A stretch of 64,000 bases of DNA from NCBI RefSeq assembly GCF_002119805.1, contig NZ_CP021059.1, forward strand, positions 1,798,001-1,862,000, in the 5' to 3' direction. Source of the DNA: Macrococcoides canis. Its GTDB lineage: Bacteria > Bacillota > Bacilli > Staphylococcales > Staphylococcaceae. Below, one piece after another: positions 3,446 through 8,483 of the stretch (positions are counted from its first letter, which is position 1; every line of letters starts with the position of its first letter). The position numbers were made by a program, and so were the translations under genes. The notes under the pieces were generated by a model, which had not been told where the DNA came from, searched no databases, and worked only from the letters and a program-made list of their open reading frames with translations.

Positions 3446-4387
3446 TTAATCCAGTGATATTGGTTTATAAAATTGACGGCCTTCCAGTGCAAATATACGT
3501 TCTGTATACTGCCCTTTCTCCACCTTCTTCATATGTTTATCAAACATCTGCATACGTGCATCAATATTATCGATAAAGTGCAGTATCTCCGCTTCTTTTA
3601 ACATCGGTAATTTCGGTGATCCATATTCATATTTCCCGTGATGGCTCAAGATCATATGACGCAAGAGCATCACTTCTTCACCTTCAATATTATGTTCACG
3701 TGCTATACTTGCAACTTCATCACTCATAATAGAGATATGCCCTAATAAGTTTCCTTCTACTGTGTACGTCGTTGCAACCGGTCCAGATAGCTCTTTAACT
3801 TTCCCCATATCATGAACGATTATCCCAGCATATAACAGACTTCTGTTTAATGACGGGTATATATCGCATAGTGCTTTCCCTTGCTTTAACATCGTCAGCA
3901 CATGATACAGCAGTCCTGATACAAAGTTATGATGGTTGCTGCTCGCTGCTGGATACACCATAAACTGCTGCGTATATTTCTTTAACAGTAATCGTGTGAT
4001 GCGCTGCAAGTTCGCATTCTCAATTTCAATAACGTAGTCCATCAGTTCTTCCATCATGGCATCTTCATCGATCGGTGCAGATTCCAGGAAGTGCTCAAGT
4101 TTCACACCATCTTCTGGTGTGACGAGTCTAAACTGATTCACTTTCATCTGTTTGCGTCCTCGATAATCAATAACGTCCCCTTTAACGCGAATCAATTGTT
4201 CTGGCTGCAGTATTTTAATATCTTCTTCTGTTACTGTCCATACTTTTGCTTCGATTTCTCCGCTTTTATCTTTTAAATATAGTGTAAGGTACGGTTTCCC
4301 TTGTCCGGTTACACCTTGTATTGCTTTATGAATCAGAAAGTAGTTATCCACCTGTGTGCCAGGCTTTAATGTTTCGATCGTTCTCAC
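3446..4387 (-). CDS. yhaM: 3'-5' exoribonuclease YhaM
   Basis: A 313-residue cytoplasmic exonuclease of the YhaM/Cbf1 family, which trims 3' ends of RNA (and single-stranded DNA) and needs Mn or Co. An OB-fold nucleic-acid-binding domain covers about residues 15-90. An HD-type domain follows, with metal-binding candidates His152/His153, His162 and the His192-Asp193 pair in [13 protein letters not shown]. The length matches the family. Its start abuts the yhaN stop, so it is the last gene of a yhaO-yhaN-yhaM unit, the same order as in Bacillus and Staphylococcus. Confidence 0.94.
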
Positions 4388-7309
4388 TTATTTAACCTCC
4401 TTCTTGTTGCGCTCTAGTACAATCGTCTGTTTATTCGTAATTGTAGACGAACGGTTACACGTGTAATAGATAATCTGATTATCCTTTTGTTTCAGCATAT
4501 ATTCAAGTATACGTTCTCGACGTTTACGATCAAAATGGACGAATGCATCATCGATGATAATCGGAAATGGATAATAGCGTCTTAATGAATGAATCAAACT
4601 TAGCCTAAGTGCAATATAGAGGAGTTCCTTTGTCGATTGAGACAATTCAGACGGGTGATAGATCTGTCCGTCTGATGCAACTGCTGTAAGAGATTCTTCA
4701 TAACTAATCTTCTTATAGCGATCTTCAGTTAAATAGCTGAAGATTTCCGATGCATCATCAATTACATATGGCAGACGTTCTTCACGTACGTCTTTAATAT
4801 GCGCTTTGATCAAAGTATCGATATAGTTTACAGAGACGAATGTCTCTATCGCTTTTTTAAACTGGTTTCTCTTTATTGCGTAAGTATAGTTCAGCTCACT
4901 CAATGTTTCATCTTCAGAAATCTTATACATCTCGTTATCAATGCGTTTTAACTGTGTTTCAATCGTGTGCTGTTCATCTTGAAGCGTCTGTATATGCGAC
5001 TCAATATCATTCAGCTGTTCTTTCAGTATAGCTTCAGGCACTTCCGCTAAATTCGTATTATCTTCATATGTAAAGGCCTGATTCCTTAATTGTTCGCTCA
5101 ATGTATTGAAGCGTTCAAGGTCTGCATAATATTTTATATGTGCTGCTTCTTTATTATAATAGCTTGAAATGTCATCTACGCCTGCTTCTTCAAATAGCGC
5201 ATGCTGTTCGTCAATGTTTTGCTGTAATGAGCCGTTGATAATTTCAATTTCTTTTAACAGGAGTTCTCGTTTATCACCATTTTTTGCGTATTGAAACTTC
5301 TCTTTTTCATCCTGTGTAAGCATATTCTTCAGATCATGAAATATTGATTCCGGTTCTGTATCAATTGGAAGCTGTGTGATAAGCGATGAAATGTCAGCAT
5401 TAAAATTTTGTAAGCGCTGCTCTTTCTCTTCGAGCTTTGAGTCACACTTTAATGCATCGTCATAAAGACGTGTGATGCGCTGTATTGCCCGATACGCAGA
5501 CGTCAGACGGTTATTTGGATAGCTGTCTTGTATTTTGAGTTCGCTTTTACACTTGCTAAGTGCCTGATGTGTCTCGTCTATACGTTCTGTCGTCTCTTTA
5601 AGATGAACGCTCAGCGCTTCTTTCTGTGCTTTCTCACGGTTTAACTGCGTTAACGTGTCCTCATATTTATCTCGTAATACCTTCTGTGCGTTTAAATCAA
5701 ATGACAGATCAAAGTCATTTTCTAATTTGAAGATACTATCTTCCAGCGACTTCACTTCATTCGCTAATTCCTCATTGAATCTTACTTCCGGCTTTTTATT
5801 CAAGACGATCAGTAATGTTGTTATGACTGCAATTACACTGAAGACGATGCCTGCTGTCCAGTTATTGATCATGAAACTGTAGATGAGTGCAACGATACTG
5901 ATCAATGCAGTGATGATATAGATATATTGCTGCATTTTATATTTTTTGAGTTCACGTGTCTCGTATGCCTGTGCTTCTTGATTCAATTTGTTGTATAGTT
6001 TAGATTTGCTTTCAAGATCGTGCTTTTGATCATACAGTTCCTGAGCTTTATTAAATCGCTCATCGTGTACTTTATCTTTATTGATACGCTTAGTGTCTTC
6101 TGTAAGACGATCAACATTTAAGGAAACAAACTGAATTTCTCTATTGATCTGCGTACTTTCAAGCTCAAGCTTCTCCAGCTGATTGATTTCTGCTGCAATA
6201 CGATTTTGTAACGCTGTACTTTGAGCAACGTGTTCATACTGCTGCCATCCGATATCTTTCATAAGTACAGATTGTTCTGTCTGCAGTGTTTCACGCTGCT
6301 GAGCAATACTTCTTATATCACCTTGCAGTTGCTTTATCGGCTGCTCTTTTTTAATCAGGTTCCTTGATGCTTCAACAAGTTCATCTGAGAGCCGCTTAAT
6401 ATGATGCATCTCCGTTTCAATCTGATGTAATTTCTGCTGACGTAATTCAAGATCTTTCGTTAACTTCTCTGCCTGATGTTTCAGCGATTCAAAGCGATTG
6501 ATCCCTTGCTCAGGAAATACAGGAGGTTCAATATTCAGCTGCAGCTCAAGTCGCTTCCATTCTTGTGCTGCAGTTTGATGTTCTATTTCTCGTAACTTAT
6601 GCCCTTTAACTTCTTCCAGTTCTTTCAGCTGCAATTGAATATGTTCTACTTTGCGTGAATCTTTATGATACGTGTCGTACAGTTCCGTAAAACGTTGTTT
6701 AATATCATCCTGAGCGCGAATTTCAGCTTCTATATGCTGCAGTTCACGTGCCTTTTCAAAGAGGATACCAGTATCATCCTGTTCTTCAAACAGTCGATGC
6801 TTTTCGTCTTTAATCGTGTTCTGCAGCGCTACAAATTCAGTTGATCCGAATGATCCTGCCTGCAGTAAATACGCTTCTAGCTTCTCCTGAGTGAGCTTTC
6901 TGTGGACTTCCTGTAAGCCAAGGACATCAAACGAGAAGATTGATTTATACGTATCCTTCTTCATATAGTTCATCAGCTGACAGAACCAAGCTTCTGACTT
7001 CACTACACCTTCATGTAACACCTGCACCTTTTCCTTGCCGTGAACGAAGACGCGTTCTATGACTATCATTGTATTGTCCGTATGTTCAAGCGTTATCTTG
7101 CCGCCATATTGCGGTGCAAATCGTGGTTCAAGTCTCGGTTCATACTCTCCTTCTTTTGGGAAGCCGAACAATAGTGCATGAATAAAAGCCTGCATCGTCG
7201 ATTTTCCCGCTTCATTCTCACCGAAGATCTGGACGAAATCATGATCGAATTCAAACTTACGATGTTCCAGTCTGCCGTAACCATATATTTCTAAAGATTT
7301 AATCTTCAT
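4388..7309 (-). CDS. yhaN: YhaN, SbcC-like AAA/ABC ATPase with membrane segments
   Basis: A 973-residue SMC/SbcC-like ATPase. The Walker A motif GENEAGKST is at residues 30-38 and Walker B (PIIIDDAFVHFD) near residue 915, with long coiled coils between. Two hydrophobic segments near residues 460-505 suggest a membrane hairpin in the middle of the coiled coil, as in YhaN. The signature reads LSQSTKE where LSxG is usual, and the switch position reads TCN where His is usual, so hydrolysis may be altered. ATG at 7309 follows AAAGG and overlaps the end of yhaO; a GTG at 7318 is the alternative. It probably acts with YhaO in DNA repair, as inferred in Bacillus. Confidence 0.9.
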   Translation of the reverse strand: MKIKSLEIYGYGRLEHRKFEFDHDFVQIFGENEAGKSTMQAFIHALLFGFPKEGEYEPRLEPRFAPQYGGKITLEHTDNTMIVIERVFVHGKEKVQVLHEGVVKSEAWFCQLMNYMKKDTYKSIFSFDVLGLQEVHRKLTQEKLEAYLLQAGSFGSTEFVALQNTIKDEKHRLFEEQDDTGILFEKARELQHIEAEIRAQDDIKQRFTELYDTYHKDSRKVEHIQLQLKELEEVKGHKLREIEHQTAAQEWKRLELQLNIEPPVFPEQGINRFESLKHQAEKLTKDLELRQQKLHQIETEMHHIKRLSDELVEASRNLIKKEQPIKQLQGDIRSIAQQRETLQTEQSVLMKDIGWQQYEHVAQSTALQNRIAAEINQLEKLELESTQINREIQFVSLNVDRLTEDTKRINKDKVHDERFNKAQELYDQKHDLESKSKLYNKLNQEAQAYETRELKKYKMQQYIYIITALISIVALIYSFMINNWTAGIVFSVIAVITTLLIVLNKKPEVRFNEELANEVKSLEDSIFKLENDFDLSFDLNAQKVLRDKYEDTLTQLNREKAQKEALSVHLKETTERIDETHQALSKCKSELKIQDSYPNNRLTSAYRAIQRITRLYDDALKCDSKLEEKEQRLQNFNADISSLITQLPIDTEPESIFHDLKNMLTQDEKEKFQYAKNGDKRELLLKEIEIINGSLQQNIDEQHALFEEAGVDDISSYYNKEAAHIKYYADLERFNTLSEQLRNQAFTYEDNTNLAEVPEAILKEQLNDIESHIQTLQDEQHTIETQLKRIDNEMYKISEDETLSELNYTYAIKRNQFKKAIETFVSVNYIDTLIKAHIKDVREERLPYVIDDASEIFSYLTEDRYKKISYEESLTAVASDGQIYHPSELSQSTKELLYIALRLSLIHSLRRYYPFPIIIDDAFVHFDRKRRERILEYMLKQKDNQIIYYTCNRSSTITNKQTIVLERNKKEVK

Positions 7310-8483
7310 GCTGTTCACCTTTCATCAACATTTTAAGATGTATTTCACCACGGTCTATCAGCTGTGCCGTCTCGAAATCATCATGCTCAATAAACTTCTG
7401 AATGTAAGTGTGCTGCAGAGGGGCGAGCGTCGTATTCATATGCGTTGCTGTGTGGAGCATATCAGAGAATTCTTCTCTCAAAGTATGCGGTGCATGTGCT
7501 TCATCTACAGTAACATCGTCTATCCACACGTACTGCTCTTCTGCTAACTCTGCCAGCTGTATTTGCTCTGTTACTTTTTGCAGCATATGTAAGTCTACGA
7601 GGCTTTCCGCTTCATTACGCAGTGTCACTTGATATATTTGTCTGCCTCTATGCCTTACCGAATCTTTGAAGGCCTGCAGATTCTGATAGATTGCATGTCG
7701 TTCCAGACTGCCGAGCTTAATCACAGCTTTATTAAATGTAATTGTATTGACCGGGATAAATGTTGCAGAAAGCTTACTGCTATCTCCTTCAACATAGAGA
7801 TATCCCGTTTCTCCGTCATCGTCGAAGCGATTTGCCTGTAATTTGCCGGGATAATGAATATGTGCCAGTTCATTCAATGACACGTGCTTACTGTAGCCAC
7901 CAAGTGCCCAGTAATGATACATTTTGCGATTGAGTTCTTCGATATGGAATTCCGTATGTGCTTTTTCTGTATTCATCTGATGATGTAATCCATTCAATAA
8001 TCCGATATGTATGGACTGATCGACTTCATTTACCGGATACATATCCAGCTTATACTCATAATTTGAATACTCTTTGTAACTAAATCCGTGAAAGCGCACT
8101 CTCTCTTTTCCTTTAGTTACAAGCTCATAGGTCTCAACGTCTTCACCGAATGTTATCACATTGTCAGGAAACTTATGAAAGGATTTTACAGACATATTAT
8201 CTTCAATACCATGAATGTAATAGACATAAATATTTTCCGCTTTTAAACGTTCAAATTGCTGTGCGGCATAATAATCGGCTCTAATATTACGGTTCTCCTG
8301 TGAGAACAGATTGCCACTGATGATAATGAAATCTACCTGCCTGTCGATTGCATCATCAACCACACGTTTAAGACTCTTATACCCTGCATTTCTAATCGAC
8401 TTCATAATATATTGCGGAATATCCCCTGCAAGTTGAAACGGTTCATCTAATCGTATATCTGAGCAATGTATAAATTTAATCAT
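7299..8483 (-). CDS. yhaO: YhaO, metallophosphoesterase-fold protein with lost metal ligands
   Basis: A 394-residue homologue of the Mre11/SbcD-like YhaO nuclease. The family needs D-x-H, G-D, G-N-H-D/E, a lone His and G-H-x-H to hold two metals. Here these read D9-I-R11, G57-N58, G92-I93-E94-D95, L-L-N164-G and G195-G196-Y197-S198, so nearly every ligand is replaced although the frame is intact. It is likely a pseudo-enzyme or uses a different mechanism. The frame opens much further upstream, but GAGGG precedes two adjacent ATGs at 8486 and 8483; the second has better spacing. It is coupled to yhaN by overlap. Confidence 0.88.
   Translation of the reverse strand: MIKFIHCSDIRLDEPFQLAGDIPQYIMKSIRNAGYKSLKRVVDDAIDRQVDFIIISGNLFSQENRNIRADYYAAQQFERLKAENIYVYYIHGIEDNMSVKSFHKFPDNVITFGEDVETYELVTKGKERVRFHGFSYKEYSNYEYKLDMYPVNEVDQSIHIGLLNGLHHQMNTEKAHTEFHIEELNRKMYHYWALGGYSKHVSLNELAHIHYPGKLQANRFDDDGETGYLYVEGDSSKLSATFIPVNTITFNKAVIKLGSLERHAIYQNLQAFKDSVRHRGRQIYQVTLRNEAESLVDLHMLQKVTEQIQLAELAEEQYVWIDDVTVDEAHAPHTLREEFSDMLHTATHMNTTLAPLQHTYIQKFIEHDDFETAQLIDRGEIHLKMLMKGEQHED

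Follow-up and report, generated by a model that had tools for sequence, protein, structure and literature searches.

The locus lies within a window of 64,000 nucleotides of Macrococcoides canis DNA (positions 1,798,001-1,862,000 of a single-contig genome of 2.36 Mb), and comprises three genes on the minus strand in the order yhaO, yhaN, yhaM. The first, yhaO (7299-8483, minus strand), is an undamaged open reading frame encoding a Mre11/SbcD-like protein of 394 amino acids with the N-terminus MIKFIHCSDIRLDEPF; ORF, alignment and fold model define it, and by sequence it is a YhaO orthologue. It sits immediately upstream of yhaN (4388-7318, minus strand), encoding a Rad50/SMC-like ATPase partner identified by AAA_27 and AAA_23 matches and by its motifs, and reportedly named SbcE in one study; and of yhaM (3446-4387, minus strand), the third gene in the run, a 3'-5' exoribonuclease matching NF010007 at 530 bits (cut-off 460). 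The GTG at 7318, where the ORF list starts yhaN, is probably part of the yhaN ribosome-binding site AAAGGTGA; this site precedes the ATG at 7309, which is probably the start and, if so used, gives an 11-bp overlap with the yhaO stop. Overlaps of 4 or 11 bp join yhaO and yhaN in all 16 species of the Macrococcus/Macrococcoides clade. In a search upstream of yhaO across the family, no LexA/SOS box with fewer than two mismatches lay 250 bp or less from a yhaO start.

The protein has lost most of its metal site. We set ligand columns by aligning window YhaO with canonical relatives, and used P. furiosus Mre11 numbering for the reference set of seven ligands (D8, H10, D49, N84, H173, H206 and H208) and the catalytic histidine (H85); in a profile alignment, motifs II-V can be seen in register with P. 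furiosus Mre11. With coordinates computed from the start at 8483, all on the minus strand, the aligned motif I (aa 9-11, 8451-8459) reads D-I-R for D-x-H, motif II (aa 57-58, 8310-8315) G-N for G-D, motif III (aa 92-95, 8199-8210) G-I-E-D for G-N-H-D, motif IV (aa 162-165, 7989-8000) L-L-N-G for L-L-H-G, and motif V (aa 195-198, 7890-7901) G-G-Y-S for G-H-x-H. One of seven ligands (D9) is present and six are replaced (H11R, D58N, N93I, H164N, H196G and H198S), and the catalytic histidine, the proton donor, is glutamate at aa 94 (H94E). The Pfam Metallophos model (PF00149) had no match to window YhaO even at E<=10; a 177-aa N-terminal fragment of a Staphylococcus YhaO, used as a control, matched with E = 8.8e-14. 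The original prediction had described an intact, full-length yhaO, coupled to yhaN and stripped of nearly every metal ligand, and each part is borne out by the reading frame, the 11-bp overlap and the motif readings; no canonical replacement motif was found elsewhere in the chain, where further D-x-H (aa 297), GD (aa 20 and 233) and H-x-H (aa 208) motifs fall off the aligned sites. Sequencing or assembly error was rejected as the cause of the altered motifs, the state being common to many independent genomes.

The loss extends throughout the clade. The catalytic histidine is absent from all 16 species, replaced by A, E, S, T or M (an exact His-to-Ser change occurs in one member); N84 apart, one or more metal ligands are missing from 14 of the 16, and D9 is invariant in every species. 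Writing the states in the order D8, H10, D49, N84, H85, D, H173, H206, H208, the window protein reads DRNIEDNGS and three genomes including M. caseolyticum DRNIEDNGN; five others (bohemicum, goetzii, epidermidis and two more) read D[L/Y/F]NT[E/S]DHHP, and Macrococcus sp. DPC7161 reads DHGNEDHHD. Within Macrococcus proper, only the N84 ligand and the catalytic histidine are gone from M. lamae and M. equipercicus (DHDEADHHH), with further states in bovicus and a close relative (DHDETGYGH), carouselicus (DHDKTDYGH) and hajekii (DYNEMDNGV). Outside the clade the state is DHDNHDHHH in all 71 loci (55 different genomes) from Staphylococcus, Mammaliicoccus and two outgroup families, and 59 of 60 further Bacilli YhaO sequences were canonical; because these columns are so nearly invariant elsewhere, their loss in the clade is far above chance. 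Full-length yhaO is found in all nine genomes of the window's genus, Macrococcoides (formerly Macrococcus), where M. caseolyticum and its relatives give the nearest hits to the window genome. Across the family, 106 of 108 genomes have a yhaO match, and the two Staphylococcus genomes that have none (G087 and G102, genus code g5) both carry SbcD. Four YhaO proteins of the M. bovicus, carouselicus and hajekii types (L039, L040, L041 and L043) have about 15 residues deleted behind a conserved HG-x-S, around window aa 136-150, giving proteins of 378-379 aa in that subclade only.

The 16 species form a single clade (100) in the YhaN tree, and again (100) in a YhaO tree built without the ligand columns; horizontal transfer of a divergent yhaO was rejected on this agreement. 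By parsimony, on trees from quick searches in which the long-branched sp. DPC7161 is possibly misplaced, H85 was lost once, each of the other six ligands at least twice, and D9 never; misplacement of sp. DPC7161 would change how many times N84 is counted as lost, but the catalytic histidine would still have gone only once. The aligned sequences and trees thus indicate that the catalytic histidine was lost first and once, at the base of the clade and before the Macrococcus clade diversified, with parallel erosion of the metal site afterwards, the ligands going later and repeatedly; this answers the question of when the residues went, which the original prediction had posed as a check.

We next consider the fold. 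An AlphaFold2 model of window YhaO (mean pLDDT 85.9) matched MjMre11 with Z 25.8 and E. coli SbcD with Z 25.2, and a model of a canonical staphylococcal YhaO, built likewise, gave Z 26.0 and 24.8. In the predicted window model the match to Mre11/SbcD spans residues 1 to about 330, covering the phosphoesterase and capping domains, and C-terminal helices are also predicted. In complexes of the Mre11-Rad50 type the C-terminal helices of Mre11 bind the base of the ATPase coiled coil and the phosphoesterase subunits dimerize; within the family, Mre11 has regions that touch the ATPase and DNA. The window protein resembles the SbcD/Mre11 nucleases in fold over both domains (Z about 25), but the SbcD of the same genomes retains the motifs that YhaO does not. 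The same is true of the canonical YhaO of Staphylococcus and Bacillus (yhaONM, with YhaN being SbcE), which shares gene order, predicted fold and partner with window YhaO, and in staphylococci about 40% identity, but keeps the site from which the window protein has lost the catalytic histidine and six of seven metal ligands.

An eroded site could mark a gene under relaxed selection, decaying, dispensable and heading for loss, and the stepwise erosion, the deletion in the bovicus-type lineage and the two Staphylococcus genomes with no yhaO match would fit such a course. However, the reading frame is undamaged in all 16 clade species, and pairwise dN/dS for yhaO (several deep pairs, saturated at synonymous sites, were left out) is 0.03-0.13 in the clade versus 0.05-0.09 in active clades, with similar values for yhaN. 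Of 89 columns invariant among 18 non-redundant active proteins, 45 stay invariant in the clade. Compared with active relatives, mean column identity fell by 0.63 at the ligands and by 0.19 within four residues of them, versus 0.06 in the rest of the phosphoesterase domain; it rose by 0.06 in the capping domain and by 0.02 in the C-terminal region, neither of which is less conserved than in active relatives. The near-site columns differ from the rest of the phosphoesterase domain at a borderline p of 0.05, and from the capping domain at p 0.0006. Invariant columns were lost at 7 of 8 ligand positions versus 37 of 81 elsewhere (Fisher p 0.03); taken as a bare count this enrichment is modest, since variation also affects many of the other invariant columns. 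We conclude that yhaO in the clade is not decaying but is held under purifying selection; decay was already disfavoured and we consider it very unlikely. The proposal that the protein kept its fold while losing its chemistry is upheld by this selection, by the confident Mre11-type model, by the intact motifs of YhaN and by the focus of erosion on the metal site.

Selection might instead preserve a pocket rebuilt as a different active or binding site, with new chemistry or with a nucleotide, metal or protein partner. In favour of this are the invariance of D9, the fixation of G-N (aa 57-58) in all nine Macrococcoides and of R11 and E94 in the window's four-species subclade, and 14 columns that are fixed in Macrococcoides and found in no active sequence. 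Against it, the replacements vary by group (R, L, Y, F or H at aa 11; I, T, E, K or N at aa 93; S, N, P, D, H or V at aa 198), so there is no common new ligand set, and conservation drops around the site. On balance we regard a rebuilt site as unlikely, though, with D9 retained throughout, the pocket may keep some ligand binding or structural use.

What the loss did to activity can be judged from characterized homologs. In P. furiosus Mre11 the H85S substitution fully abolished both exo- and endonuclease activity (PMC8007570), and the homologous histidine is called essential in Mre11 and in PolD DP1 (PMC4996933); because of this, the ancestor of the clade was very probably already nuclease-dead, and its descendants are predicted to be without nuclease activity. 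We found no nuclease measurement on a canonical YhaO in the literature, so the activity of the ancestral protein is itself argued from the family. Residual or divergent activity, for example one-metal catalysis or catalysis with partner-supplied residues, would find its best candidates in the basal M. lamae and M. equipercicus, which retain six of seven ligands and might, to judge from those residues, retain weak activity. But the proton-donor histidine is gone from every clade member, its substitution by itself ends both activities of P. furiosus Mre11, and the window protein holds just one of seven ligands. We consider surviving nuclease activity very unlikely.

The partner ATPase has not followed YhaO. 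Window YhaN has an undamaged Walker A (GENEAGKS), signature (LSQSTKE) and Walker B (IIIDDAFVHFD), and all three motifs are undamaged in every clade member. SbcD is found in all 16 clade genomes, and its D-x-H, GD, GNHD and GHxH motifs are undamaged in all nine clade sequences read; the cell thus has a standard SbcD nuclease, and loss of the site is confined to YhaNO. Loss of all Mre11-type nuclease from the cell was rejected on the presence of SbcD in all clade genomes. A recombination role fits the complex: in Bacillus pumilus, yhaONM has been described as a putative cluster for double-strand-break repair whose induction accompanies that of the SOS regulon (PMC3896406), and the single-strand binding protein SsbA counts B. 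subtilis SbcE among its listed partners (PMC7031210). YhaN also has one or two strongly hydrophobic stretches in the middle of its coiled coil (aa 462-500 of the product of 4388-7318, minus strand), which are present in all 41 YhaN examined from the order and in three from another family; at the equivalent position the SbcC proteins encoded by these genomes carry a CPVC zinc hook. This pattern suggests that YhaN carries a membrane hairpin in place of the hook.

The YhaO active site has been lost a second time, independently, within a single genus of a different Bacilli family: two of three genomes there have an altered YhaO (L272 in G309 and L274 in G386) and the third (L273 in G385) is canonical. 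The changes comprise G-A-S-D or a G-A-H-D-like motif for GNHD, tyrosine for the histidine of motif IV, and GG for GH in motif V. The first altered protein has the full state DHDASDYGH; the second retains the motif III histidine (GAHD) but has LYG and GG. Because this species combines ligand changes with a retained histidine, the order of loss may differ in this genus, with ligands going before the catalytic histidine. The H-to-Y and GH-to-GG changes are similar to those of the bovicus type, although the lineages are unrelated. Beside both altered proteins YhaN retains Walker A, a signature motif and Walker B, and both genomes have SbcD.

Taken together, these observations make it probable that YhaO in the clade is a pseudonuclease, a structural and DNA-positioning subunit on the YhaN heads, with YhaNO a non-cutting clamp or sensor and SbcCD the enzyme that cuts. 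Loss of the catalytic histidine in the clade ancestor would have left YhaO nuclease-dead, and the metal ligands, being useless from then on, would have been free to erode later. The protein would retain the fold together with the capping domain and the C-terminal helices, yet would neither hold two metal ions nor protonate the leaving group. Docked on the YhaN ATPase heads, it would serve an ATP-driven clamp, sensor or scaffold at DNA ends or forks, with cutting left to the separate SbcCD; binding of YhaO to YhaN, DNA clamping and this division of labour are proposed as the most likely arrangement. The parts retained (the ATPase, the fold, and the regions contacting ATPase and DNA) would be those that an ATP-driven Mre11-Rad50 needs for tasks other than cutting. 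Because strong selection maintains the gene beside its ATPase although the site is lost, the job of the complex is probably independent of DNA cutting.

Inactive metallophosphoesterase subunits are already known, and what sets the YhaO case apart is its unusually well preserved intermediates. VPS29 of retromer uses an inactive metallophosphoesterase fold as a rigid scaffold (PMC3101248), much as we propose for YhaO, but it is a eukaryotic trafficking protein rather than an Mre11-type DNA-repair subunit, and it has kept weak metal binding. In eukaryotes, DNA polymerases alpha and delta have B-subunits with an inactive phosphodiesterase fold, while the archaeal equivalent of these subunits, DP1, works as a nuclease (PMC4996933); like YhaO the B-subunits are inactive parts of a DNA machine, but the complex is a different one and the loss is ancient and eukaryotic, whereas the YhaO clade has surviving intermediate stages. 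Searches of the open-licence literature turned up no Mre11, SbcD or YhaO protein described as a natural pseudonuclease.

It has long been asked which functions of Mre11-Rad50 need the nuclease, and point mutants have been the usual approach. The clade offers a natural graded series, from loss of the catalytic histidine and one ligand to loss of six ligands, with the ATPase retained, and these graded losses make nuclease-independent functions testable across natural relatives. Annotation of yhaO as an exonuclease on the basis of its family would be incorrect for the entire clade. More tentatively, we suggest as a possibility, at somewhat less than even likelihood, that the clade turned a Mre11-Rad50-type machine into a nuclease-free, probably membrane-anchored clamp or sensor, with intermediates still living, and that this was repeated at least once in another Bacilli family. 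If that conversion took place, YhaNO would have a conserved job in these bacteria that does not rely on cutting DNA.
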